Shown piece by piece: positions 2,157-30,487 of a stretch of 37,677 nucleotides of DNA; the stretch's first letter is position 1, and the number at the start of each line of letters is the position of its first letter. The translations under genes were made by a program, and so were the position numbers. Source of the stretch: a virus. The notes below the pieces were generated by a model. That model saw only the letters and a program-made list of their open reading frames with translations, searched no databases and was not told the origin of the DNA. Where the stretch lies: the IMG/VR virus record IMGVR_UViG_3300042465_003697, positions 1-37,677 of that record; one strand, written 5' to 3'.

Positions 2157-3092
2157 TTATTTGCCTCCTTTCTTCGCGAGTTCAGCGAGTTGGATGAAAT
2201 TGTCGTCGAGGAATTTGAGCAACTCGGATCCTGCCTCATTGATCGGGTAGTAATTCTCGCCGCCTTCGCCGTTTGCCTGCAAAGTCTCCAGCATAGTCGA
2301 CCAATGGATGCCGGCGGCATCGAGACGATCAATGATGCGATCGGTCAATGACTTAACCGGTTGCGCCTTGCTTTCCTCTTCAGCCTCCAGCTTCGCGATC
2401 TCAGCCTTGTAGACCGGCACCTCTGGAATGTCCTTTGGTTCCTCCACCTTTTTTGGTTTCTCGATAAACAGTTTGCCGGCCTTTGCTGCGACCGGTGTCA
2501 CATCGCGCACAGCAGCATCTTGCGCTTCCTCTGCGGTAAGCATTCCCAGAGTGATGTCAGGAGCGTATAGACGGGCAAAGAATGCCGCTGCACGGTAGCG
2601 CAGCATGAGTTCAGGCATCGTGAGCCATTTGCTGCCTGATTTAGTGCTCCAGCCTTCAGACTTTGCCATAGCCAGTGTGATCTTTGGCCCATCAAGCACA
2701 GTGCCGTCATCTTTCGACTTTGCCCATGCAATGCAAGAGCGGTCACCGGTGCCTTCGGTGCCATCCATGCGGAATTGAAGAGGCTCAAATCGACCGCTGG
2801 AATTGACCATTGCGATCAGGAATGTGGCTCGAAAGCTGGGGCGACCGTGGATGATATCCACGTTCTGCAAGACCATGAACGGGTCTGCTCCGAGACGCTT
2901 TGCGATGCCGATGCCGATGGCGCAGTTGGCAATGTTGCCCTGAAATTCCTTTGGGACAAGCGAGCTGGATGCGAACATCTTGGCCTGACGTTGCAGCATG
3001 TCGAATGCTGCTGACTCCCGCTGAATTTGAACGTCTGTGATTTCTGTGGTGGTGATTTGTGTGCTCATTGTCGTTGTGTTTCGTTGGTTCAT
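2157..3092 (-). CDS. recT: RecT-like single-strand annealing protein
   Basis: The protein has 311 residues, close to the usual RecT length. The core (about 30-190) carries the family pattern: hydrophobic helices, an MVNSSGRFEPLQF segment, and MLRYRAAAFFARLYAPD followed by the LGMLTAEEAQD signature common in phage RecT proteins. The C-terminal third is acidic and probably flexible. RecT proteins coat ssDNA and anneal complementary strands. The neighbouring RecB/Cas4-like nuclease, RusA and SSB make a complete recombination set. Its ATG overlaps the previous stop as ATGA; AGGG sits only 2-3 nt from the ATG, so coupling to the upstream gene probably matters. An internal ATG at residue 9 has no SD. 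Confidence 0.87.
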   Translation of the reverse strand: MNQRNTTTMSTQITTTEITDVQIQRESAAFDMLQRQAKMFASSSLVPKEFQGNIANCAIGIGIAKRLGADPFMVLQNVDIIHGRPSFRATFLIAMVNSSGRFEPLQFRMDGTEGTGDRSCIAWAKSKDDGTVLDGPKITLAMAKSEGWSTKSGSKWLTMPELMLRYRAAAFFARLYAPDITLGMLTAEEAQDAAVRDVTPVAAKAGKLFIEKPKKVEEPKDIPEVPVYKAEIAKLEAEEESKAQPVKSLTDRIIDRLDAAGIHWSTMLETLQANGEGGENYYPINEAGSELLKFLDDNFIQLAELAKKGGK

Positions 3093-8440: not shown

Positions 8441-11400
8441 TCAGTCTTCTTTGCCGTAGAATAGGGTCGAAGTGTCTTTGAAGACTCGGTCGGCAATACC
8501 TGGTGCGGATCCAGCCGGCGAGAATGGAGTGACCATCGCGCCCCCAGCCTTCATGATTTGCCATGCTCCACCAAGGTAATCTTCGTTTTCCATATTCTCT
8601 GGCAATTTCTTGATCGACTGAAGTAATTGATCAGACATATCCACCATTGGGTTTGTCGAAGATCTCCAGTTTCTCGGCGCATCCTGCTTTTCTCCGGTGA
8701 GTTGCTCGGTCGCCGCAGCAACTGCTGATGCAATAAAGAACTCAGCAGCAGCACCAAGCAGGAACAATCCCTGTAACGGCCCAACGATCGCAGCGCGGAT
8801 GAAGTTGTCGAGTTCCCACTCTTTGTCGTCGTCCTTGAATAGCGACCGAGTGACAGCATTAGCGACTTGGAACATCAGCCCAGGAATGACCCAATAAGCT
8901 AAGACCTTCCGCATTGTTTCCTCGTTGGTCGCTCCTCCCCGCTTCCATTTCATCACTGCCTCACCAACAAGTCCAAGTTTCTGTCGAGGATCCGAGGAAA
9001 ACATCGACAGCAGGTTGAAGACTCCGCTGGCATCATTCTCGATCAGTGATCGACCAGACCAGTCATTCGGTTGAGCGGTTCGACTCACAGCAATCTCCAT
9101 TTCACGAGCCGCATATTTGTGAGCAGCATCGTCGCCGGCACCGGCATCCTTAGCTTGAGCGAATCGGTCGCCATAGACCATTGCCGCCGAATATGAGGTC
9201 AGCACAGCATCAGCATATTGGGTCGGCACAGACCCATACACCAATGCGTTCTCAACAAGCCTGAGAATTGCATTCTTTGATTTACCAGCATTTGCCAGGA
9301 TGTGCCTGATCTCAGGAGTTCCACCAAGCTCAAGCCGGTTCTGGATGATGTTCGTGTCCCACATCTTGCCCCAATGCTCAACACCTCGCGTGAATGCCGC
9401 CGGCCATCTCGTGATTGGTATTTCACCCAATGAATAGAACACACTCGAAAGCGTCTTGATCGATGTGCCGATATTGAATGCGAGTGCTTTCATCGCCACA
9501 CCTGACTTCAGGTTCCTCATCAGTTTTGACGAGTGCATGACGAGTGCGCCTTTGCCAACTCCTCGTGACATTTCAAGCTGGATCCACGATGACAGTGTCT
9601 GCATTGCCTCTGCGCCATGACCCGATTTGATCGCATTCTGCACATCTGCATTCAGCATCACGGCTTGAGTATCGCGAAGGTATTCAGCCATATGCACCCA
9701 GTAATCCATTTGCACGAAGTGCGCTTGATAGACTGCCAATGCGCTTTCAATTCTCAGCGACGATGTGCGTCCTCGACGTGATTTGACTGCGCCAGGGTTT
9801 ACCGATTGCGAGACAACACCAGAGTTCAGCGGATCAAGGCTGGCTTGATTGCCCTGATGGTTCTTCAAAAGCGGAGCGTAAAACTGTATCTGCGGCATGC
9901 GCGTGTGAAACAGTTTCATGAAGACCTCGTTAGCAGTGTCATATTCCGCCGAGTATTCCGCGCCAAACCATGCCAGCCAGTTTTTGGCATCGTCGCTCAT
10001 GAATGCCTCAAGCTCAGTCTGGGTAACGTGATCGTAGCCATGCACTGACTGCTGGTCGAGGATGCCTGGCTGGCGCAATGCCATTGCCATGTATACAGCT
10101 TCCATCTGTGACAAAGGAATCTCGATGCGAGTGCCTAGTGTCTTGATCCTGTCGATGGTCAGGTTGCGCTTGCGTGCATTTGGCAGATTCGACCATGCAT
10201 CCATTTCATCTTCCCACAGTTTTGCCTCTTCCGCAGAGTAACCGAATGTGGATGGAGACTTGATGATCTTCGCCACCTCCTCAACTGTTTTGGTGTCGCT
10301 TTCTCTGATCTCTCCGCTCAGGTATGTGACTCGACTGCGCTCGACTTTGGTTTCGAGTTTCTCCAGTTCTTTGTCCAGCTTGATCTTCGACTTGGTGCCG
10401 TAGAGAGCACGCATGAAATCACGCAGGCTTTTCTTTCGTGCGGCTTGTGTTGTTTCAAACGCATTCACACCGAGGATCATGCGCTCATCAAATACATCCG
10501 CAGTCTTATTTGACCTGCCAAAGATTGAAGACAGCACGAATCGATGTGAACCGAGTTCGCGAAGGAGTCCCTTCATCATGCCCTTTGTAGTGCCTTTGCC
10601 TTTATCTTTACCTGCCTGCACTGTCGCTGCATTGGCCGCGCCGGCAAACGCATCAGCCTTGGCCTGCTCGACCATTTTGGCAATCTCCGCAGCACGAGCC
10701 TCGTCGATGATCTTGCGAGCATTGCGACCCTGTGTCATGAGATCTTTGAGATACTCGTGTGCCACGTCCATCTCTTCAGCAGTCGTCTGCTTGCCGTAGA
10801 GGTCACCGAATACTTCCAGCAGTTGACTCTTGGCGAACGAATCAGCGGCATCTTCAGCAGTCTGTGCCGATATGATCTCAGCCTCATAGCGTGCCGCCTC
10901 TTTGACCGTGTCATCAGCCGAAAGGCTTGCCATGTCGATGATCGTGTTCAGTTCGTCCTGCACGGTGACGATGAACTTGGATTTCGGAATCTCGCCGGCC
11001 TTGCCTTTTACAGCAGCAGATTCCAGCATCTTGTCGATGCGTTCGCCATACTCCTTCTTCAGGTATCGCTCGACCGCTTTTTCCATTTTCGGAATGCGCT
11101 CCTCGATAAACTTGAGACGTGCCTCGTCGGAAGACAGTTTCACCAATGTTGATATGCTGCCAATAGTGCCGCGAATCTCGGTGGGCATCGATGACACAAT
11201 TGCATCGTGAAGCTGGATCCACCCATTGAGTTTATCCTTCAGCATCGCCGCCTTCGCCTGCTCTGGAGTCGTCTCTTTTTCGAGCGACTTCTTGACCCAG
11301 TCAGGAGTCTTGTCGGTGACCTTGCCGAGCTTTGCAATTCGGCTTGCCTCCATCTCCGCGAGCTTGCGCTTTGCAGCACCTGGGCGACCGACATTGTAGA

Positions 11401-14400
11401 GTGCCTCACCTGAGATCGCTTGAGCACGCTTCAACGCCATCATGCCAATCTTGAGCTTGGCATCAGGTGATCCTTCAAAGAGCGGGCGCAGAGATTGCTC
11501 TATTCGTCCGGTGAAGTCTGATCGGGAGATTGAGAAAGTTGGGCTAGTCGAAGAGGTTTCTTCATCCACCTCAGTTGTAGACCCAAGCATGCGTTGACCA
11601 GTCGCTTCATCAATAGCCTCACTAGAAATAGGAGCACCTTTGGGATCGTAGGTAAAAGCGTAGCCGTATGCATCCTTGTTTAATCCAGCGACTTCAATGC
11701 CTGTCTTAATCTTTGGATTTACAGTAGCGAGATCCCGAATGATGTTGTTATCCCAGTCGCCAGTTTTCCATGTGCTTTTTGCCTTTTTGATGTTAATCAA
11801 TAAACGCTCTCCTTGGTGCTCGACTAGGCCAAAACCTTTAGGTGCTTTAAAACTGCCTTCACCAAAAACTTTAAACCCCAAACGGTCTTTGCTGGCAATA
11901 AAGTTAGCTTGATCGTTGATGATCTTTTGGTTAATCTCGTTAAGATCGGCTCGGCTCACTTGTGGCTTAATCACCACTTTGCCAATAGCACTTCTAGCAA
12001 CACGCTGAGCTATGTCCCAGAGTAATATACTAACGCCTTTAACATTTTGATTATCAAGACCCTCAGACACAGCAAGAGCACTGAGGGCTGGCAACACAGC
12101 AGCTTTGATGTCGGTCTCACCGGTAAGGATGCGAACGTCTTCAGGCACTTTAAAAGCCTTGCCCTCTCGCTTAAGGCTCATCGCCTCCCACGAACGACCG
12201 ATGAGATCGGTCATGCGTGAAATAGGATCAGCTTTTTCTACTCCCTGACTTGGCTTTGCGTTTCGTCCGAGACTGCCTGTGACACGAGAAAGGACATAAC
12301 TGCGGAGCCTCGCGACAGTATCGAGTCTAAAGCTGTTTGCTGAGCTAGCCTGCCCTCGTCCCTCAACCGTTGATTCATCCTTTCGATCGCCTCGTCTTCC
12401 GCTTTCTGATTGATAGGATTTCTGCGGGTTGTTTTCATAAGATTCGACTACTTTTTTACTGATTTTAATCTTTGTAGGACCAAAGACTGTGTCTGTGATT
12501 TTTTCTACCTTATCTAATACAGAATCCAATTCAACAGCAAAGTTGCCGTCATAGAACCCACCGTGAATAGAGATGACTGACGCGCCTTCATTGTCTGTAA
12601 GAACAGTATGCCCACCAATAAATCCGTCACTCATTCGACCTTGTGAGTCTTGCAGTTGTCCAAGTTCAGTCATGACTTGGAGAATTTGATTGTCCGTGTA
12701 TCCTTCTGGAAGGACAATCTCCAGAACTGGTGTCAATTTTTTACCTCCAAGCTTTTCAGTAATCGACGGGTTTCGGATGACGTTTCCGCCAGTCTGTTCA
12801 AGTGCTTCAGCAAGCGCAATGTTAAACATTGATGTTGCCCATCTCGGTCCTGACATTTCAAAGACCACATTTGGAGACATGGTTGCCCTGTAACTGCCGG
12901 TGCCAATTCTGACAGACCGCAAATTGATAGGAAGTCGAGATTCATTTAAAGTTTTTTGCATGCCATCCAGAAACCCTGGACCAGTGACTCTTTCGAGAAG
13001 TGTTCGTACTGGGTCGGTCTCTCCGCGCAAAGCTAACTTTTTGAGCACCTCATCAAAAACAGTTTTGTAAAGTTTACCACCTTCCTCTGATTGCATTTCA
13101 AAAGGCATAAGTTGCCGAGCCTGGGTGGCATAAGCAAGCTCAGCAGCAGATACTGAACCGAGAGCTTTGGACATGTCTTTGCCTTCAACATTTGAGATGA
13201 GATCTTTCACCACATCCCTACCTTTGCTGGCGTCTACTCCAAACTCTTGGAGTTGCTCAAGTAAGGTTTCTGTTGAACGAATTTTAGCATTAATTGCAGC
13301 CTGCTTTTTACTATCCTTCTCTCCATTTAACTCAGTTTTAAACTCGTTAAGAGCCTTGTTGAGTTGTTTCGTCGCAGCAGACTCAACTGTGCCGTCTTCA
13401 AATGCAATCGAAAGATCTTTTAGTGCATTGACCACTTCGTCGTAACTTGAGAAGTCGCGCATGCTCTTTCTGGGATTCTTTACCTTCTCCATGCCCCACC
13501 GGTATTCTTGGACGTTGTAAGCCGTCCAAACACTCTTGCCAGCCATACCTCCGGAGGCGTTAATAATGTCAGCCATCATGCCGCTGAGGGCTTGAGAAAT
13601 GTCGTATGTCGGACCCTCGCCGCCAGCAGCCAGCAACATTGCTCCGTCCTCATTTGGTGAGTAGATGCGAATGGTTTGAGACTCAGGATCAAAGTCTAGG
13701 GTTTCGAGTTCTTGTGGACTAAGGTCACTCCATGATGAAACGTTTTTCTTGTTTTCACCGTATCGGTTATGCCAGTCGAGAACCTGAAGACCTTCAGGCG
13801 AATCAATGGAAACGCTGCGGCCGGCTTCTGGTCGAGGATCCACCCAAATGTAATTAGTCTTCTTATTGTCAAGCACTTCACCAATAACAAAACCAGCACG
13901 CACGTTTCCAAGTGCAGCCTGATCCCACATGTCTGATGTTACCAGTCGGTCAAGCTCACGCTTTAACAACTCAATGTCGTCCATTGTTTCGACCTTCACC
14001 TCAACTCCGCCGGCAGTTTTTACAGAGACACTCAAAGATGTCGCCAGTTTTTTTGCAAGGTTAAGGATGCTGTCAGGATTTAAATCCAACCTGATTGCTT
14101 TGTGAAGTAGTTCAGCCGCACCGTTAAGGTAAAAGTTGCGGACCTTGTTATCAACGCCGGTAAGGTGCATTGCAAACGCTTCACCATTTCGCCATTCATC
14201 AACAATGGTGCTCATACCAAGCACCTGATTTACTGTGCCTGCTTTGAACCCAGGAGTGAACTCTGAAGCAAACGCGCTAGCACCACCGCCGATTGCTTTT
14301 GCTGCGTTTGAGATGACAGATGCCCTAGGAGACAGAAATGCAAACCACCGCAGATAAAGGTCCGCAGCGTCGATATCTCCAGTCGCAAGGTCATAACCGG

Positions 14401-17400
14401 CATCAGCCATGCCAGAGTAGAATCGCAAAGAAGCAGATGCAAGTTGAGGCGATGAGGCTGCCCATGTGTGCATGAGATTCATCTGCTCATTTAGTTTTGC
14501 AATTAACGATTCACTGTCGGAAATTCCAGCAAGACCTGGAGGCAAAGAGTATGCCTTCAAATTCTCTCCTTTTGCTTTTCCAGTAACAGTGGCAACTGGA
14601 TCGTAAATGTTGACTCGCGGAGGAGACATTCTGGAAGCCTCATCACCCGCAGGAGTTTTGATCATTATGTCATTCTGCGCACGCTTGCGAGTTGGGAAAG
14701 ACGCGCCTTGATCGACGCTGGTCCACAACGCCTCATCGACAATAACTACTGGCTTCACACTCGCTTGAACCTGCTCAAGAGTAACTTCCTGAGCCATCGA
14801 AAAATTGATGTCTGGCGATGCTTGGTTAAACCGTTGACTTAGCGGGATGACATTACCATCGGCATCGTAGGTCACGGGGTCGGCGGATTTGATTTGATCC
14901 TTTGAAAACACTACGATTTCAGCGGTGCCATCTTCTGGATCGTCGGCGTATTTACGAATGAGCGTATCCGCATTACCTCGATTCATACTACCTTCTGGCT
15001 CGCGTGAAATTTCCAGTTTGCGAGGCTCTAGGAATTTGTGAACAACCGTTCCCTGCTTTCCTGCCCACAATTCGGCAGTCTCGCGTTTTGGGAAAAAGTA
15101 GATGCCGCCTTGAATGGCGTCAGTCTTTACACCACGTCCTGCGTTTTCGGCGCGGAAACCTTCGATTAGTCCCGCCTTCTTCGCGGCCTCGTCCACCATG
15201 GCCTGAGCCTTCGCCATGTCGCCTGCCTTAGCCGAAGCGAGATGCTCAGCGTCTTGCGCGGGCGTGACACGTACCATTGACATCGTCACGCCAGCATCCG
15301 CAGCAATGCCCGCAGCAGTGTCAACAACGCCATCAGCATTGCGGTTTGATACATTCAGCCCAACGCTCTTTTCAAGCGCAGCGACGAAGTCCTGGTTGAG
15401 TCCGTTCGCATCGTGGATCGCTTTCAATTGAGAAGCGCGATAGAGAATGTTGAGTGTCTTCTCACCGACAAGGTCGATGGCATCCTTCAATTCCATGCCG
15501 GCAATGCTCGACTGGAGACTGCCAAGGTAGAGGTTGAGCGGCATGTTAGGAGTGAAGGTCGGACGCTCGACAGCTTTCGTTGTCTGCACATAATACGACT
15601 TCGCGATGTGCGAGAATGCCTCAATGATTTCCATGTTGGAAACCTTGTCGTCATCAGTGGTGGCGATGAGAGGCATGTGCTTCTGCCCCATCTGCATAGC
15701 CTGATCCTTCATCTTTGCTTCAACATCCCTGATCTGTAGAATGAGCCTCGTGCGGCTCGTCGGATCACTCATCAATCGTTTCACTCCGACTTCTGCGCTT
15801 TCCTCGATGAGGTCGAGAAGACTGCCTCCTTTGTAAAGCGTGATGACTCCAACAGAGATTCCTTCACGCTGCTCAATTGAGTTTGTGCCGAGAATCCGGT
15901 AGTTCTTATTGTCGTTCGCTTCAGATTCAAGAGTAGCATTCTCAAGAGATACATCTTCAACTGCTCCATCAATTTGGCCTGTCAGCTTGATGCGCTCTTC
16001 GACTTGTGCGGTAGTCGATGGGAACAACTCGGTAAACTGTTTGGTGAACATGTCGTAGTCCATCATCAAGGCAACATCAAGACCCTGCTTTTCCTCCAAG
16101 GTATTAACCATTGATGTAAGGAATTCCTGCTCTGCTTTTCTGATGGTGATTCGACTGTTTTTCAGATATCGCATCCATGCTTCATTCGCTTCACTGAGTG
16201 AATCAAATTGTGCGCTGACTCCCTGATCAATGATATTGCCTTTGCCATCCTTCAGAATAGGAGTCGTAAACTGGTACTTGCCATTGCCAATGTTTGCTGG
16301 AGTTCCAAGGCCAAAGTCCTGTCTGGCTTTGTTATGCCATTCAAGTGCCGCTGATTCTCTGATGTTGATTTTTCTTTTAGCTTCCTTGATCTGCTCTGGC
16401 GTTGCTTTGTTGCCTTTGTCGAAACCTTTGCGGAACAATTTATCGACTTCAGTGTAGTTGCCCTTCAAACCTTCAACTGTGATCTGGTTGGCTAAGTCAG
16501 GAGCAATGCCTGATTTTACCATATAGTCAGGCGATGTTATCAATGCGCGTGAATTCTTCACGTCTGCAATGGAGATTCTGCCTGCCATGAGGAATGACAC
16601 GATCAGTGCCGGCCCAAATGTCTGCTCTGCAATGTCCGAGATCTTCGGCATGCGCTCATCCCAGTCAGCTTTCGAGATTCCGCTTTCGATTGACCATGCA
16701 GATTGCCACTCAGAAAGCAGATCTTGGGTGAGCAAAGGTGTCGCAGTCTGCATGACCTCTTCAGAGATCTCGGTCGCCGTTCCGATTACAGTGCGCGTTG
16801 CAACGCGAATTGCTGCGCTCTTGACGCTTGTTGTTGCAGCTTTGAGCCATTTGTCGATAAATGGAATCTTGATCTTTCCTAGCGGCAAAGCATTTGAGAT
16901 GAATTCCTGAGTTGCCATAAACGGTGCCGAAATAGCACCGACAACCTCTGCGTTCTCAAATGACACTCCTGCGTTTACTGCCTCAATAGTTGCCTCATCC
17001 CTGAACTGACCTGTCATGATAGCAATCGACGCAGGGCTACTAATGAATGTCGCTGCCAGCAACGGAGTCATGCGTGCGACTCCAATGCCGGTTTCCTCCC
17101 ACCAATTATTGCCGGCGATAGGATTGATTTTGCTGTGTGCCATCATCTTTACCTGGCCGGCTAAGACTTGGAGTTCTCGACGCTTTTTGGCAACATCTAC
17201 AATTCCCTGCATCTCAGGGATGTTTTGATACAATGAAATTGCTTGTGATGTCAGCATCGACTCAGCCAATGACGCAGTGCCAGTGACTGCTTTTTCAACC
17301 TCTCGATCCATTGCAGTTGCCAGTTTCTGTAGATATGCCTGCTTCTCTTTTGGCGCAGCAGCACCCACTTCACCAATGGCATTGATCACAAGTAGACGCT

Positions 17401-18103
17401 CTTTTGGTGGTAATGGTAGAAGACTTTCAGCTACCTTCGCAAACGTATCAGACACGCCTTCAGCTTTTGTATCATATCCTTCAATGGTCTTCGCCGCCTG
17501 ATCGATGATTGTTCGGTATGGCGCAAGTCTCTGCGTATATTCAAAGTGTATATTGCCAATCGAATCATAGTAGTCTTTTACACGACCAGCAACAGGCGAG
17601 CCGGTTAATCCCACGTCAAATTCATTCATTGCGCTAATGGCTGTAAGATTGCGAGCCGCTGCGCTAAAGGCCAGGTTGTGAGCATTGTCCTGTGCTTTGT
17701 AGTCTTCACTCACGAGTTGGTAGAACTCGTCATCAGTGACGCTTTTCTTCGGTGACTTAAAGTATTGTTGCGCGTAAGTGTCTTGATAGACTGGCAATGT
17801 CAGATTGAAATGATCAATGGGCTTTTGTTCACGCCGCGCAAGCCAGGCGACATTTGCTGCGCCTTTTTTGATGGTCGCGATTTCTTCAGGTGAAGCGCCA
17901 TAACCGGCCATGACGTTGTCATCAATCTTAACACCTTCAATTGATGGTGATGTGAATGACTTTTTGATGCTTTTATCTACCTTCAAATCTTCAGCTTGGA
18001 AGTATTCATCAAGAGCGGTTGCCATCTTGAACTTCTCACCATCAGGAACCGATGGATCTTCAATGCCTAATGCAAATTCTTTGGCTTTTGTTTCGTCGAT
18101 CAT
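8441..18103 (-). CDS. Giant polyvalent internal virion (ejection) protein, 3220 residues
   Basis: One uninterrupted frame covers 26% of the genome, in the place of T7 gp16. Visible layout: an alpha-helical N-terminus (1-330); a region at 335-470 with hydrophobic helices (GVARMTPLLAATFISSPAS) and an IGTATEISEEVMQ segment typical of giant ejection proteins; an ADP-ribosyltransferase-like polyvalent module at about 940-1104, from AEHLASAKAGDMAKAQ through GGIYFFPKRETAE and QIKSADPVTYDADGNVIPL to PDINFS; a second segment ending in SPTFSIS near 2190; a charged helical stretch at 2190-2650; an LSQMEAVYMAMALRQPG domain near 2665; and a large C-terminal domain (2800-3220) with membrane-like helices at 3066-3134. 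No lytic transglycosylase motif was found. Such proteins enter the cell with the DNA. The ATG has no SD. Confidence 0.88.
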   Translation of the reverse strand: MIDETKAKEFALGIEDPSVPDGEKFKMATALDEYFQAEDLKVDKSIKKSFTSPSIEGVKIDDNVMAGYGASPEEIATIKKGAANVAWLARREQKPIDHFNLTLPVYQDTYAQQYFKSPKKSVTDDEFYQLVSEDYKAQDNAHNLAFSAAARNLTAISAMNEFDVGLTGSPVAGRVKDYYDSIGNIHFEYTQRLAPYRTIIDQAAKTIEGYDTKAEGVSDTFAKVAESLLPLPPKERLLVINAIGEVGAAAPKEKQAYLQKLATAMDREVEKAVTGTASLAESMLTSQAISLYQNIPEMQGIVDVAKKRRELQVLAGQVKMMAHSKINPIAGNNWWEETGIGVARMTPLLAATFISSPASIAIMTGQFRDEATIEAVNAGVSFENAEVVGAISAPFMATQEFISNALPLGKIKIPFIDKWLKAATTSVKSAAIRVATRTVIGTATEISEEVMQTATPLLTQDLLSEWQSAWSIESGISKADWDERMPKISDIAEQTFGPALIVSFLMAGRISIADVKNSRALITSPDYMVKSGIAPDLANQITVEGLKGNYTEVDKLFRKGFDKGNKATPEQIKEAKRKINIRESAALEWHNKARQDFGLGTPANIGNGKYQFTTPILKDGKGNIIDQGVSAQFDSLSEANEAWMRYLKNSRITIRKAEQEFLTSMVNTLEEKQGLDVALMMDYDMFTKQFTELFPSTTAQVEERIKLTGQIDGAVEDVSLENATLESEANDNKNYRILGTNSIEQREGISVGVITLYKGGSLLDLIEESAEVGVKRLMSDPTSRTRLILQIRDVEAKMKDQAMQMGQKHMPLIATTDDDKVSNMEIIEAFSHIAKSYYVQTTKAVERPTFTPNMPLNLYLGSLQSSIAGMELKDAIDLVGEKTLNILYRASQLKAIHDANGLNQDFVAALEKSVGLNVSNRNADGVVDTAAGIAADAGVTMSMVRVTPAQDAEHLASAKAGDMAKAQAMVDEAAKKAGLIEGFRAENAGRGVKTDAIQGGIYFFPKRETAELWAGKQGTVVHKFLEPRKLEISREPEGSMNRGNADTLIRKYADDPEDGTAEIVVFSKDQIKSADPVTYDADGNVIPLSQRFNQASPDINFSMAQEVTLEQVQASVKPVVIVDEALWTSVDQGASFPTRKRAQNDIMIKTPAGDEASRMSPPRVNIYDPVATVTGKAKGENLKAYSLPPGLAGISDSESLIAKLNEQMNLMHTWAASSPQLASASLRFYSGMADAGYDLATGDIDAADLYLRWFAFLSPRASVISNAAKAIGGGASAFASEFTPGFKAGTVNQVLGMSTIVDEWRNGEAFAMHLTGVDNKVRNFYLNGAAELLHKAIRLDLNPDSILNLAKKLATSLSVSVKTAGGVEVKVETMDDIELLKRELDRLVTSDMWDQAALGNVRAGFVIGEVLDNKKTNYIWVDPRPEAGRSVSIDSPEGLQVLDWHNRYGENKKNVSSWSDLSPQELETLDFDPESQTIRIYSPNEDGAMLLAAGGEGPTYDISQALSGMMADIINASGGMAGKSVWTAYNVQEYRWGMEKVKNPRKSMRDFSSYDEVVNALKDLSIAFEDGTVESAATKQLNKALNEFKTELNGEKDSKKQAAINAKIRSTETLLEQLQEFGVDASKGRDVVKDLISNVEGKDMSKALGSVSAAELAYATQARQLMPFEMQSEEGGKLYKTVFDEVLKKLALRGETDPVRTLLERVTGPGFLDGMQKTLNESRLPINLRSVRIGTGSYRATMSPNVVFEMSGPRWATSMFNIALAEALEQTGGNVIRNPSITEKLGGKKLTPVLEIVLPEGYTDNQILQVMTELGQLQDSQGRMSDGFIGGHTVLTDNEGASVISIHGGFYDGNFAVELDSVLDKVEKITDTVFGPTKIKISKKVVESYENNPQKSYQSESGRRGDRKDESTVEGRGQASSANSFRLDTVARLRSYVLSRVTGSLGRNAKPSQGVEKADPISRMTDLIGRSWEAMSLKREGKAFKVPEDVRILTGETDIKAAVLPALSALAVSEGLDNQNVKGVSILLWDIAQRVARSAIGKVVIKPQVSRADLNEINQKIINDQANFIASKDRLGFKVFGEGSFKAPKGFGLVEHQGERLLINIKKAKSTWKTGDWDNNIIRDLATVNPKIKTGIEVAGLNKDAYGYAFTYDPKGAPISSEAIDEATGQRMLGSTTEVDEETSSTSPTFSISRSDFTGRIEQSLRPLFEGSPDAKLKIGMMALKRAQAISGEALYNVGRPGAAKRKLAEMEASRIAKLGKVTDKTPDWVKKSLEKETTPEQAKAAMLKDKLNGWIQLHDAIVSSMPTEIRGTIGSISTLVKLSSDEARLKFIEERIPKMEKAVERYLKKEYGERIDKMLESAAVKGKAGEIPKSKFIVTVQDELNTIIDMASLSADDTVKEAARYEAEIISAQTAEDAADSFAKSQLLEVFGDLYGKQTTAEEMDVAHEYLKDLMTQGRNARKIIDEARAAEIAKMVEQAKADAFAGAANAATVQAGKDKGKGTTKGMMKGLLRELGSHRFVLSSIFGRSNKTADVFDERMILGVNAFETTQAARKKSLRDFMRALYGTKSKIKLDKELEKLETKVERSRVTYLSGEIRESDTKTVEEVAKIIKSPSTFGYSAEEAKLWEDEMDAWSNLPNARKRNLTIDRIKTLGTRIEIPLSQMEAVYMAMALRQPGILDQQSVHGYDHVTQTELEAFMSDDAKNWLAWFGAEYSAEYDTANEVFMKLFHTRMPQIQFYAPLLKNHQGNQASLDPLNSGVVSQSVNPGAVKSRRGRTSSLRIESALAVYQAHFVQMDYWVHMAEYLRDTQAVMLNADVQNAIKSGHGAEAMQTLSSWIQLEMSRGVGKGALVMHSSKLMRNLKSGVAMKALAFNIGTSIKTLSSVFYSLGEIPITRWPAAFTRGVEHWGKMWDTNIIQNRLELGGTPEIRHILANAGKSKNAILRLVENALVYGSVPTQYADAVLTSYSAAMVYGDRFAQAKDAGAGDDAAHKYAAREMEIAVSRTAQPNDWSGRSLIENDASGVFNLLSMFSSDPRQKLGLVGEAVMKWKRGGATNEETMRKVLAYWVIPGLMFQVANAVTRSLFKDDDKEWELDNFIRAAIVGPLQGLFLLGAAAEFFIASAVAAATEQLTGEKQDAPRNWRSSTNPMVDMSDQLLQSIKKLPENMENEDYLGGAWQIMKAGGAMVTPFSPAGSAPGIADRVFKDTSTLFYGKED

Positions 18104-25383: not shown

Positions 25384-26274
25384 TTATGGGGATTCGTCGC
25401 AATAGATACGAACAACCTTTTCATTCTCAGTGCGGACAGCACCGAGCATCATGGTCGAGCGGATCTGGAGGGCGTGGCGGCGGGTAGGCAGAATGTCCAT
25501 CTGCACCTTGCGATCAGACATGGCGAACTTGATTGCCGACTTGTGGAAGGCAAACACAGAGCGGATGTCAGTGCTGGTATTGCGTGCAAGGCGCTGTGAA
25601 GACAGGAACTTGAAGCCGAGGAAGGTATCAACCTGACCAGACACAAGAGCCTTAACGCTGCTGTAGTCTTCGCTGGTGACTTCAGTCGTGCGAAGGAGAT
25701 CTTGCACCTGTTGAGCACCGCAAACAAGCATACGGTCAGCGTTTGGCACTTCAGCCAAGTCCATCAGGTATTTAGCCCGACGAAGTTTGCCGATGGTCAG
25801 ACCGCTAGCTGCGCTCGTGCCGTTCTCAACGTAGGTTGAGGCGAGAGAGTAGTTAGTGTCGAACGCATCACTGGTCGTGCCGTCTTCGCCAATGTAGCGA
25901 GTAGCGTCAAAGGCACTGATGATCACGTCATCAATTGCGCGGTTGAATGCCATCGCATGGGATTGGACTTCATCGCTCGTTGGGAGAACGATGGAACCAA
26001 GGAAGTGCTTGTCGAACTCATCGAAGACGGTGACTTTTTCCTTCGGACGCTGGGTGAGCCAGTATTTGGATCCGTCGAATTCACCGTCAGGCGTGTCACC
26101 TTTGCGAGTGAGAACGTCCTGAGCTTCGGAATCGTTGATGAGGTTGAACCATTTCTTCTTGCCGGTGAAATCGGCGCGAGTAACGGAATTGAGCAGGCGC
26201 GAATCCATCTGCTGGAGAGCCTGGGAGAAAGAGCGTTCAAACTCTGTTGGGTAGAATGTATCAATGGTAGCCAT
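25384..26274 (-). CDS. Major capsid protein
   Basis: The 296-residue protein (MATIDTFYPTEFERSFSQALQQ) has the layout of podovirus capsid proteins of HK97-type fold: an N-terminal helical arm (10-35), an E-loop-like segment (KYWLTQRPKEKVTVFDEFDKH, about 69-90), a spine helix (SHAMAFNRAIDDVIISAFDAT), a strand/helix domain with LRRAKYLMDLAEVPNADRM, and a C-terminal part ending MMLGAVRTENEKVVRIYCDESP. Its place just after the scaffold supports this. No family-level motif is decisive. It lacks an SD; the in-frame sequence upstream has no start codon, so ATG 26274 stands. Its leader holds three stem-loops and an operator-bearing promoter candidate. Confidence 0.88.
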   Translation of the reverse strand: MATIDTFYPTEFERSFSQALQQMDSRLLNSVTRADFTGKKKWFNLINDSEAQDVLTRKGDTPDGEFDGSKYWLTQRPKEKVTVFDEFDKHFLGSIVLPTSDEVQSHAMAFNRAIDDVIISAFDATRYIGEDGTTSDAFDTNYSLASTYVENGTSAASGLTIGKLRRAKYLMDLAEVPNADRMLVCGAQQVQDLLRTTEVTSEDYSSVKALVSGQVDTFLGFKFLSSQRLARNTSTDIRSVFAFHKSAIKFAMSDRKVQMDILPTRRHALQIRSTMMLGAVRTENEKVVRIYCDESP

Positions 26275-26997: not shown

Positions 26998-27822
26998 TTA
27001 TGCGGTCGCAGCACCGTGCAAACGCTGAAGCTGAGACAATGCAGCGGTTTGCTTCTCAATGCCATTCTTTCCTTGGTAATCGTCACTTTTCCTGATGCGA
27101 TCAGCCTGCTCTTGGTAGGTAGCCGCGACATTGTCACCGCTGATCAGACCGGAATCTTCGCGCAGGAACTTATCCACAGCCAGCGAGGCGCGAATGAATT
27201 CAGGATCCGATGCCAGTTTGCTGGTCTTGATGTCGATGCCGACTGCCAGAGCGCCACGAGCTGCACGTTGCCAGTTGTTCGGAGCATCTGCGCCCCATTC
27301 GGTATTCAGCCCATCGATCACGCTCTGAATCTGTTGTGCCTGCAACTCAGCCGACTTGGTGACGATGCCGCTCAAGTTATCATTGTTGAGGTCGATGAGT
27401 TTGTGCAGTGCTTCAGGTGGAATGCCATACTCTGCTGCGATTGCTGCGGCTTTGTTGGCAGTGTCAGCATTCCACTCGATGCCTTCAGGCAGGTTGTCTG
27501 GCGCCTTCAGACCGTAGTCTTCAGCTTTCTCAGGAGCACCGGTGATCTTCCTGACTTCAGCGCGATAAGCGGCGATCTGTTCAGGTGTTGCGTTGGCACC
27601 TGGTATCTTGATCTCGCGTTTCTCACTGAATGCTTTTTCGAGCGACTGGTATGATGCACCGAGTTGATCGACCTTCGGCTCACCTTTGGCCTCATCCCAG
27701 AACTTGGCTGGAATGTAGTCAGGTCGAGTGACCGTTGATGGCGCAATGTCTGGTGCCGCCGGCGTTGGTGTGATTTGCGTTTTGAGCGCAGTCGTTTCTG
27801 TGGTCGTTGGTGTGTCAGGCAT
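26998..27822 (-). CDS. Scaffolding protein
   Basis: The 274-residue protein has a disordered Thr/Pro-rich start (1-35), then RPDYIPAKFWDEAKGEPKVDQL (36-57), a phrase typical of podovirus scaffolds. Long charged helices follow (LGASYQSLEKAFSEKRE; TPEQIAAYRAEVRKITG; AELQAQQIQSVIDGLNTEW) and a polar C-terminus that may bind capsid. Scaffolds guide capsid assembly and leave before or during packaging. It directly precedes the capsid gene across a tandem terminator and a new promoter candidate, which would let capsid be made in excess over scaffold. No SD. Confidence 0.85.
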   Translation of the reverse strand: MPDTPTTTETTALKTQITPTPAAPDIAPSTVTRPDYIPAKFWDEAKGEPKVDQLGASYQSLEKAFSEKREIKIPGANATPEQIAAYRAEVRKITGAPEKAEDYGLKAPDNLPEGIEWNADTANKAAAIAAEYGIPPEALHKLIDLNNDNLSGIVTKSAELQAQQIQSVIDGLNTEWGADAPNNWQRAARGALAVGIDIKTSKLASDPEFIRASLAVDKFLREDSGLISGDNVAATYQEQADRIRKSDDYQGKNGIEKQTAALSQLQRLHGAATA

Positions 27823-27828
27823 GGTGTT

Positions 27829-28176
27829 TTATTTGGTGTTGAGATCCTTCCACGAGTTGAACTCGCTTGGGCCGTAAGTGTTGACGAATCGAAGCTGGAA
27901 CTGCTGTGGATGCTCCCAGTAGTTACCGAATCCGCTGATGTCCCAGCGCGAAGGTGGAGGCGGTAGCTTGACCGGTTCTTCAGCTTCAGCCGGTGCAGGC
28001 TCGTCGATCTTGGGATCAATGAGGGAAACCTTGAGATTCGGGTTTGCCGCAACGTCTCGGATCTGTCCCAGGATGCGACCGCTGATCTTCTCACCGGCGA
28101 TGATTGTGTCATTGACGATGCGACCGATGAACTCGTCATCGCGCATCACCTCGTTGTCTTCTGTGATTGTGATCAT
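27829..28176 (-). CDS. Hypothetical head-region protein
   Basis: The 115-residue product starts MITITEDNEVMRDDEFIGRIVND. A first half with mixed strands and a helix (EKISGRILGQIRDVAANPNLKV) is joined by a Pro/Glu linker (EPAPAEAEEPVKLPPPPS) to a C-terminal segment rich in aromatics (WDISGFGNYWEHPQQFQLRF). No known family. The start was set at 28176 because a longer frame would overlap the preceding gene. It sits 7 bases before the scaffold start and is probably expressed with it. Confidence 0.65.
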   Translation of the reverse strand: MITITEDNEVMRDDEFIGRIVNDTIIAGEKISGRILGQIRDVAANPNLKVSLIDPKIDEPAPAEAEEPVKLPPPPSRWDISGFGNYWEHPQQFQLRFVNTYGPSEFNSWKDLNTK

Positions 28177-28180
28177 AATT

Positions 28181-28489
28181 TTACAGTTTAAGATTGTCAG
28201 CAGTTGGCTCCACAATAGTGTTGCTTGGGTCTTTGCTGTTTGGATATGGGTTCGGATTGCCGATGTATTTCAGTGCCATACCCTGCCGCATGATGCAGGA
28301 TTCAAGGTCGCGAATAGAGAGAATGTGTTGCGCTATTGTTTCGTGAGGGTCTTCACAAGCGCACGGCTCTGCATGCTTTCCATTTACGTGACGATGAAGG
28401 GCAGTTCTGTGCTCCTTCATGCGTTGAAGAAGGTCATCCGCCTCTTTGCGGAATGTTTTAGCGGCGATAACGGCTTCGTCTCTGGTCAT
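28181..28489 (-). CDS. Helical-hairpin protein, possible Acb2/Tad1-type sponge
   Basis: The 102-residue product begins with a long charged helix (MTRDEAVIAAKTFRKEADDL to ALHRHVNG). After a CACEDP turn comes a second helix (ETIAQHILSIRDLESCIMRQ, GMALKYIG), and the tail reads NPNPYPNSKDPSNTIVEPTA. The helix-turn-helix hairpin and the IRDLESCIMRQGM-type second helix remind me of small phage proteins classed as Acb2/Tad1 hairpin proteins, which bind cyclic nucleotides or gcADPR and block CBASS or Thoeris defence. I cannot see binding residues with certainty; a minor head protein remains possible. It lies between the Bbp19-like gene and the scaffold. No SD. Confidence 0.5.
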   Translation of the reverse strand: MTRDEAVIAAKTFRKEADDLLQRMKEHRTALHRHVNGKHAEPCACEDPHETIAQHILSIRDLESCIMRQGMALKYIGNPNPYPNSKDPSNTIVEPTADNLKL

Positions 28490-28493
28490 GGTA

Positions 28494-28784
28494 TTATGTA
28501 TCTTGTTTGTTTGGTTTCTCTGGTTTCTCGTCGTAACGGGAAAGGTATGTGTCGAGTAGCCACCGGACGTGCGCTTTGCTGCCATCTGACAAGCCTGCTT
28601 TGATCGCATCAGCACCGTTGGACTGCGTGAAAACGGTCGAGAACACGCCGCCGCATGTCTGATTCATCCACCGGAACACGAGTTGAAAGTCCTCGTTAGA
28701 GAACAGGCGAATGACAGCACCTTCGATGGATGCTTTTTCGTCACCAGTGAGAGGTGAGAGCAGTTGTGTTATTGGTGTTTCCAT
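28494..28784 (-). CDS. Bbp19-like small virion protein
   Basis: The 96-residue product shows the Bbp19-like pattern: a helix (DEKASIEGAVIRLFSNEDF), a central QLVFRWMNQTCGGVFSTVF segment, then AGLSDGSKAHVRWLLDTYL. Related proteins lie beside the portal gene in podoviruses such as Bordetella phage BPP-1. Here it starts 9 bases after the portal stop. The C-terminus is short and charged (RYDEKPEKPNKQ). The exact structural role is unknown. No SD before the ATG. Confidence 0.6.
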   Translation of the reverse strand: METPITQLLSPLTGDEKASIEGAVIRLFSNEDFQLVFRWMNQTCGGVFSTVFTQSNGADAIKAGLSDGSKAHVRWLLDTYLSRYDEKPEKPNKQDT

Positions 28785-28792
28785 TCAGTTGT

Positions 28793-30487
28793 TCACATCA
28801 TTGCCTGGGCGACCTCTTTGGCTTTATCTACGCCACCGATATCCTTCACGGCACCTGCCATCTGTTGTGCCATTGCCATCTGTTGCTGCGCCTGCATTGC
28901 CTGAGCGCGGCCTTGACGAATTGCATCGACCTCCTCTTGAGGACGCAGGAAGGAAGGATCCACGCCGGCAAGCCTTGAGCTTTCACGAATGAACCATGAC
29001 GGGTTGATTTCGTCGATGATCTCAGGAAACACTGGAGCAAGTGATGCGATCTTCTGAACCATCGTGTCAGCAGCACGCAGCGACAGTCCACGCAGAGCGA
29101 GTGCCAGCCGATTCGTCATCGTGATCACAGGATTCGGCACCTGGACAAGATTCGGCCCGATCTGTTGCACAGCTTCAGCAGGAGGAGGAGGAAGCATTCC
29201 ATTCTCAGCCCACGATTCAAACAGGCGAATCATCATTGGCTGGATCGTATCGGTCGTGTCGCGATCAAACGCAGGACTGATGGCATCCAGCTTCTCACCG
29301 GCAAGTTGGTTTGCTTCAAATGCCGTCATCTCACGGTTGTTTGCAGCGTTCATGCTAAACATCTGGAACATGTCGAGATGGCATCGCCGGCGGATCATAT
29401 CCTGACGCATCTTCACTCGCTCCATTGCCATCGACCAGTCTCCACTGACTGGCAGCGGATAGATGGAATCAGGGTTCAAGCCTGCGCCATAGTAGTTCAT
29501 GGCTCGTGCGGATGTCTTCAGCGTGCCTTCAAACGTGTCTGGCACCATCATTGGAGGGAACACTGACTTCTCAGCGTAAACATCCATCATCTTCTGCATG
29601 AAATTCAACTGACGTGACTCAGGCAGAATCGAGAATCCTGGGCCGTATCCCCAAACGTCACCAACGTCGAGAGCATCCCACTTCAGGAACCGTCCAACGT
29701 GGAACGGAAACGATTCAAACCCACCTTCCTGAACGATCTTCTGGCTAGCCTTTTCAACGTATGCAGAGACGAACGCCTTCCTCATGCCTGCTGCCATTCC
29801 GAGATCATTTCCTCGCTCACTGACTGGTCGAGGTTCGACGATGTGAATGAAGGTGAACTTCTTGTCAGAGTTGTTGTCGCATGCCTCCCTGACTGCCAGC
29901 GGTAGTTCATCTTTCCCGAACTTAGCTTCAGCCTGTCGAGCAGTCAGATCGAACTCACGCATGACGCAGTTCGCCATGCCGTTGTGATCAGTGTCAAAGA
30001 CATACGAACCGATCTTGATCTTCTCAAACCGAGTCTGGTTGTCAGGTGTGACCTGCGAGAACAAGCAGGATGTTCCAAATCCCCAAAGGTCAAAGAGCGA
30101 CTCGTGCCGTTCAGCGTAAAAGTTGCTGTTGGCGATGTATTCGGACGCGAGCATCGAGCATTCACGCAACCAATTCTTCACCGCATCATTGTCACGGAAC
30201 TTGAGGATCGGCGTGAACTCCATCCACGGTTGAGTCTTGTCGGTCGTCCATGACATATAGCCGGCAACTGCACGCTCGATGGCATCCATGCCAGTGATGT
30301 CGTAAAGTCGAGCATCACGCTGATTCGCAGGCGTGTAGTCTTTCTGTGTAACGCCAGCCTTTCGAGTGAAGATGTGCTCTGCGATCTCCTGCCAGGCAGT
30401 GTCCCAAATAGCACGAGCGTCTCTCAGCGAGTTGTAACGCTTGAGCCACCTAGCAGTGCGATCATTGCCCTCGATGTAGTCGCTCAT
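28793..30487 (-). CDS. Head-tail connector / portal protein (T7 type)
   Basis: The 564-residue protein matches the podovirus head-to-tail connecting family. The opening is RWLKRYNSLRDARAIWDTAWQE with EIAEHIFTRK (13-45), then LYDITGMDAIERAVAGYMSW, KNWLRECSMLASEYIANSNF and FDLWGFGTSCLF. Further on come RFLKWDALDVGDVWGYGPG and SILPESRQLNFMQKMMDVYA, the region of the wing and stem, and the C-terminus is a Gln/Ala/Met-rich helix (QGRAQAMQAQQQMAMAQQM) that probably forms the barrel. Twelve copies would form the DNA channel. It follows the small 85-residue gene and starts the head transcript. No SD. Confidence 0.93.
   Translation of the reverse strand: MSDYIEGNDRTARWLKRYNSLRDARAIWDTAWQEIAEHIFTRKAGVTQKDYTPANQRDARLYDITGMDAIERAVAGYMSWTTDKTQPWMEFTPILKFRDNDAVKNWLRECSMLASEYIANSNFYAERHESLFDLWGFGTSCLFSQVTPDNQTRFEKIKIGSYVFDTDHNGMANCVMREFDLTARQAEAKFGKDELPLAVREACDNNSDKKFTFIHIVEPRPVSERGNDLGMAAGMRKAFVSAYVEKASQKIVQEGGFESFPFHVGRFLKWDALDVGDVWGYGPGFSILPESRQLNFMQKMMDVYAEKSVFPPMMVPDTFEGTLKTSARAMNYYGAGLNPDSIYPLPVSGDWSMAMERVKMRQDMIRRRCHLDMFQMFSMNAANNREMTAFEANQLAGEKLDAISPAFDRDTTDTIQPMMIRLFESWAENGMLPPPPAEAVQQIGPNLVQVPNPVITMTNRLALALRGLSLRAADTMVQKIASLAPVFPEIIDEINPSWFIRESSRLAGVDPSFLRPQEEVDAIRQGRAQAMQAQQQMAMAQQMAGAVKDIGGVDKAKEVAQAMM

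Follow-up and report, generated by a model that had tools for sequence, protein, structure and literature searches.

A helical-hairpin protein encoded in a phage head-gene block is a diverged relative of the Acb2/Tad1 family and a candidate nucleotide sponge

Acb2 and Tad1 are phage proteins that sequester bacterial alarm nucleotides. The window analyzed here, the entire 37,677-nucleotide record IMGVR_UViG_3300042465_003697 of a podovirus-like phage, raises the question of what a 102-residue protein, proposed in an initial annotation to be an Acb2/Tad1-type anti-defense sponge, is doing among the head genes. The explanation favored by the follow-up analysis, with a probability of about 0.72, is that the protein works as a nucleotide sponge, small and oligomeric and of the Acb2/Tad1 hairpin type, and that its gene is mobile cargo sitting in the head-gene block.

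The hairpin gene occupies positions 28181..28489 on the minus strand, with its ATG at 28489 and its stop at 28181, and encodes 102 amino acids. The start can be regarded as fixed because the equivalent methionine is the start in all relatives of the same clade (hereafter the window clade); an in-frame GTG further upstream, at 28615, would give a product of 144 aa and was rejected because the relatives begin at the ATG. Across 55 pairs from the window clade, the median pN was 0.19 and the median pS 0.67. The ORF is under purifying selection and is therefore a real gene, which upholds the initial gene call.

The head genes described next are encoded on the same minus strand. On the upstream side it adjoins a Bbp19-like gene (28494..28784), which marks the upstream border of the insertion in the closest relatives and whose label is weak, PF25181 being matched in homologs at E-values of 0.0014 and 0.02, below the cut-off. 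Beyond this gene lies the portal, or head-tail connector, gene (28793..30487, PF12236). The downstream border is formed by a gene for a 114-aa protein whose function is not known (27829..28173), followed by a scaffold-like gene (26998..27822; PHROG 3742, and PHROG 458 ‘protease’) and by the major capsid protein (MCP) gene (25384..26274), identified by position and used as the lineage marker. Late expression would be expected from the gene order in the head-gene block. Elsewhere in the window, a DUF2800/PDDEXK nuclease is encoded at 723-1901 and also occurs in the otherwise unrelated phage L003 (6554-7783), a RecT-like protein just under the cut-off lies at 2157-3092, and a single ORF of 3220 residues (8441-18103) is probably the polyvalent protein mentioned in the initial annotation.

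To follow the gene through the phage lineage, relatives were collected by their MCP and the portal-to-MCP interval was checked for the hairpin gene in 57 spanning loci. It is present in 8 of them (six distinct contigs, the other two being repeat fetches) and absent from 49, these being counted singly without collapsing near-identical contigs. Some of the phages without the gene are very close to the window: the portal of L192 is 99% and its Bbp19-like gene 97% identical, and the MCP of L184 is 99% identical. As in other relatives without the hairpin gene, the 114-aa-type gene of L192 and L184 follows almost directly after the Bbp19-like gene, with ∼10-20 bases from the stop of the one to the start of the other, so that the empty site is nearly seamless. 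In L004, the hairpin gene is a clean ORF insertion at this very point. Gene order also varies within the lineage, the hairpin gene standing before the 27829-type gene in L002 and after it in L006 and L017. The hairpin gene is an accessory gene and not a fixed head component, and its assignment as a structural protein of the head was rejected on this presence/absence pattern. The refuting finding named in the initial annotation, a fixed virion part, did not materialize. The interval 28173-28494 of the window, together with the matching intervals in L002, L006, L008, L017, L217, L223, L226 and L242, is a cargo site of this phage lineage. Different relatives carry unrelated small ORFs there, such as one of 125 aa at L217:6099-6476, whose function is not known.

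The distribution of the gene extends beyond this lineage. The window clade comprises 11 contigs in addition to the window record, with proteins 66-100% identical, the copy in L001 being identical to that of the window. Copies with 66-70% identity were found in L003/L016, L005, L007 and L009, in replication or lysis neighborhoods. The L003/L016 copy is flanked by the DUF2800 nuclease on one side and by an Enc34-type ssDNA-binding protein and a DNA polymerase on the other; the L007 copy adjoins an amidase, and the L009 copy, known from a 5.3-kb contig only, lies near an exonuclease. The MCP, portal and terminase of the window were searched in the whole contigs of L002, L003, L005, L007, L008 and L016. 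No homolog of any of the three was found in the contigs of L003, L005 and L016, and that of L007 contained no MCP or portal homolog and only a partial terminase match (39%). In L008 the hairpin gene is 67% identical, against 40% for the portal and 54% for the MCP. A scan of genome contigs found no host or prophage copy. This pattern of identities, together with the unrelated carriers, identifies the hairpin gene as a transferred cargo gene that moves horizontally.

A structural model of the 102-aa protein was generated with AlphaFold2 from 53 sequences. It contains exactly two helices, at residues 3-36 and 48-77, with a mean pLDDT of 84.9, in agreement with the hairpin layout proposed earlier; past the second helix the tail is extended and confidence falls. 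The predicted pair of long antiparallel helices, which AlphaFold2 also gives for the canonical relatives described below, is a trait of the PF24729 family and alone is not diagnostic. Helix 1 (28382..28483, minus strand) carries the conserved columns K11, R14, D18, Q22 and K25. The inter-helix segment (residues 28-50; 28340..28408, minus strand) is variable in length and sequence in the alignments and is shorter or missing in most canonical relatives. Helix 2 (28259..28348, minus strand) is equivalent to helix 2 of Tad1 and Acb2 in the model and alignments. The C-terminal tail (residues 78-102; 28184..28258, minus strand), NPYPNSKDPSNTIVEPTADNLKL, includes Y82 and a PTAD motif, and these 25 residues are nearly unchanged in the window clade and the canonical group alike. 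A Foldseek search of the PDB with the hairpin gave no significant match and is uninformative because two-helix hairpins are generic; the best BFVD fold match is annotated ‘Acb2/Tad1 hairpin domain-containing protein’, with a probability of 1.00 but an E-value of 0.026.

Taken alone, the 102-aa protein has no significant match to any Pfam, PADLOC or NCBIfam model; it scores below the curated cut-off of PF24729 (0 Pfam families), and PHROG 31827 is matched weakly (E 0.006), with an alignment confined to helix 1. The link to the family runs through intermediates. With tblastn, the protein retrieves relatives in phages BK735P4, cr111_1 and Gundel_1, at E-values from 2e-8 (BK735P4) to 8e-6, and these relatives score above the PF24729 cut-off. 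Matches in Pseudomonas phages (H7-H24), with E-values of ∼1 or more, were judged to be due to chance. The relatives belong to a canonical group from uncultured and Bacteroidota-type phages, ∼35-53% identical. PF24729 is matched by 43 of the 53 aligned proteins, a number equal to that of the canonical rows, and by 0 of the 10 window-clade proteins in the alignment when members were scanned singly. An hhalign comparison of the window-clade and canonical profiles gave an E-value of 1e-35, the best of 30 column shuffles used as a control reaching 0.011. The similarity extends over all parts of the protein: 1.1e-13 for the core without the tail, 4e-12 for helix 1, 1e-7 for helix 2 and 1.3e-24 for the tail. 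Common descent with PF24729 members above the cut-off is established by these hhalign and tblastn results.

When the joint profile was compared with the PDB, the top six matches were all Tad1 chains, the best being 8kbb (E 3.2e-5). Its helix 2 also aligns weakly with that of T4 Acb2 (hhalign E 8e-4); the window-clade profile by itself gives no match to T4 Acb2, the connection passing via the canonical relatives. The resemblance first suspected for the second helix is borne out by these matches. In the tree, the members of the window clade group together with full SH-aLRT support, and a long stem of 3.9 changes per column separates them from the canonical group. Alignment and phylogeny place the window clade as a diverged, monophyletic group that is sister to the Acb2/Tad1 hairpin family.

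The window clade differs from its relatives at recognizable positions of helix 2. Canonical relatives and Tad1 have the pattern (S)RE...(I/L)T......MW, and at the aligned positions the window clade has A53-Q54, R60 and R68, which show no or almost no variation, along with an invariant H55. In L054 numbering of the canonical protein, the substitutions are R49 to A53, T56 to R60 and W64 to R68, with H55 also replacing a canonical arginine. The R-E, T and W that Tad1 and canonical members have in common are absent from the window clade. The canonical threonine aligns with T68 of T4 Acb2, where a change to methionine lowers affinity (PMC12657230), and the window clade has R60 at this position. Such replacements suggest that the ligand preference of the window clade has probably shifted. 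Since the C-terminal tail of Tad1 lines its ligand pocket (PMC12043709), a ligand role for the conserved 25-residue tail is plausible by analogy.

Further functional associations come from the sister group and not from the window clade itself. In six viruses, all uncultured, the canonical hairpin and tail are fused behind, that is C-terminal to, an RyR domain (L085:7515-8138, L044:7662-8267, L062:3091-3753, L099:2686-3303, L105:2620-3225 and L106:2647-3279); the PF24729 score lies slightly below the cut-off in the L085, L099 and L106 fusions. In L030, the RyR domain and the hairpin are encoded by neighboring separate genes. All six fused RyR parts retain H..W-x21-H-x16-D, the four ligand/catalytic residues of RyDEP at their exact spacing, RyDEP being phage RyR-domain proteins that act against Thoeris (PMC13232231). 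The RyR domain was found neither in the window phage nor in 30 other carriers, in a search in which no control genome matched. No published description of an RyR-hairpin fusion was found, and the recurrence of this RyDEP-type arrangement suggests that phages join two anti-signal domains in one chain. In the Tenacibaculum phage Gundel_1 (L013:9854-10425), the hairpin gene is followed directly by a Tad2-like gene (PF11195, E 1.5e-26), and the two form a candidate counter-defense pair. A Tad2 neighborhood as a general pattern was rejected, a Tad2-like gene having been found in only 1 of 54 carriers.

These features are best accommodated by a sponge mechanism. The hairpins would pack into an oligomer whose pockets would be built from the faces of helix 2 and the conserved C-terminal tails. 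An alarm nucleotide of host defense (CBASS, Thoeris or similar), either cyclic or of the ADPR type, may bind in such pockets, and with the nucleotide bound, the defense effector would not be triggered. CBASS or Thoeris can be named as the target only by inference, because the clade differs from both prototypes, Acb2 and Tad1. A more specific version is tentative: the window clade might be a new type of sponge with a rewired pocket (Ala-Gln/Arg/Arg, variable inter-helix insert, tail kept) that sequesters an alarm nucleotide different from the CBASS and Thoeris ligands known for Acb2 and Tad1, and spreads between unrelated phages as single-gene cargo.

Three other explanations were weighed against the sponge. 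A descendant of a sponge could by now have taken on another role, binding a host protein or nucleic acid, or acting on the signal as an enzyme instead of as a passive sponge. The newly invariant A53, H55, R60 and R68 and the length of the stem are in keeping with this idea, as is the precedent of the RyR family, in which sponge and enzyme forms coexist (PMC13232231); it is nevertheless unlikely, given that the family-wide conserved tail and most of helix 1 are retained and that no catalytic-looking set of residues is apparent beyond H55. The protein might also be cargo of a different kind, a direct inhibitor of a defense protein or a superinfection-exclusion factor, for which an ancient similarity to the hairpin family would say little about function. 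Relatives do carry unrelated small cargo ORFs at the same site, and therefore cargo status alone does not tell function. The similarity to PF24729 members is strong, however, and spans both hairpin and tail, and sister-group members carry a fused domain that acts on nucleotide signals, which makes this reading quite improbable.

The third alternative is a head-module protein that serves in assembly or in the virion, such as a minor core protein or scaffold helper, and that has only a generic helical hairpin in common with the sponges. It is suggested by the location of the gene between connector and scaffold genes and by a weak phmmer match (E 0.02) between one relative and 8egr, a portal-proximal core protein. 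The gene is missing, however, from most relatives with the same head genes (49/57) and turns up in replication or lysis neighborhoods of unrelated phages, and the homology covers the full-length sequence and not the fold alone, leaving this explanation with very little probability. The sponge reading would imply that an entire clade of hairpin sponges escapes the present family model, PF24729, and that counter-defense genes located inside head-gene blocks can be mistaken for genes of structural proteins. Ligand switching can be tested directly, thanks to the invariant substitutions in helix 2 and to natural pairs of near-identical phages of which one carries the gene and the other lacks it.

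Comparison with known systems places the protein beside, and not within, the two prototypes. Tad1 is characterized by gcADPR binding and Thoeris rescue, and Acb2 by the binding of cyclic di- and trinucleotides to its hexamer. With the Thoeris anti-defense sponge Tad1 (PDB 8kbb, 7uav, 8smd), the 102-aa protein has a matching helix 2, in which the R-E, T and W of Tad1 are replaced; the C-terminal tails are unlike, and the N-terminal four-strand beta-sheet of Tad1 (PMC12043709) has no counterpart in the AlphaFold2 model, which contains no strand. The anti-CBASS sponge Acb2 (T4 Vs.4, PDB 7uq2; Pseudomonas phage p26, 8h2j) is likewise small and all-helical, with two long antiparallel helices. T4 Acb2 requires Y8, the Y8A variant losing function (PMC12657230), whereas the 102-aa protein lacks this N-terminal Tyr segment, its helix 1 beginning at residue 3 with no N-terminal tyrosine; the equivalent of T68 is an arginine in the window clade, and the window-clade tail is missing from Acb2. 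The fold of RyDEP differs from the hairpin, to which it is joined in the canonical fusions. Also close are the canonical hairpin and tail proteins (for example WAX08067.1 of BK735P4 and QOR59169.1 of the crAss-like phage cr111_1), for which no report of any member having been tested was found: they have in common with the window clade the hairpin, the tail NPYPxSxDP...PTADGLKL and full-length homology. They match PF24729 and keep SRER...T...MW; in the window clade the corresponding residues are IAQH...R...MR, an insert lies between the helices, and the score falls below PF24729. The Acb2/Tad1-type reading of the initial annotation therefore stands as far as family homology and the variable presence of the gene are concerned, and it does not extend to identity with either prototype; as judged from these comparisons, the 102-aa protein is neither an Acb2 nor a Tad1 in the strict sense.
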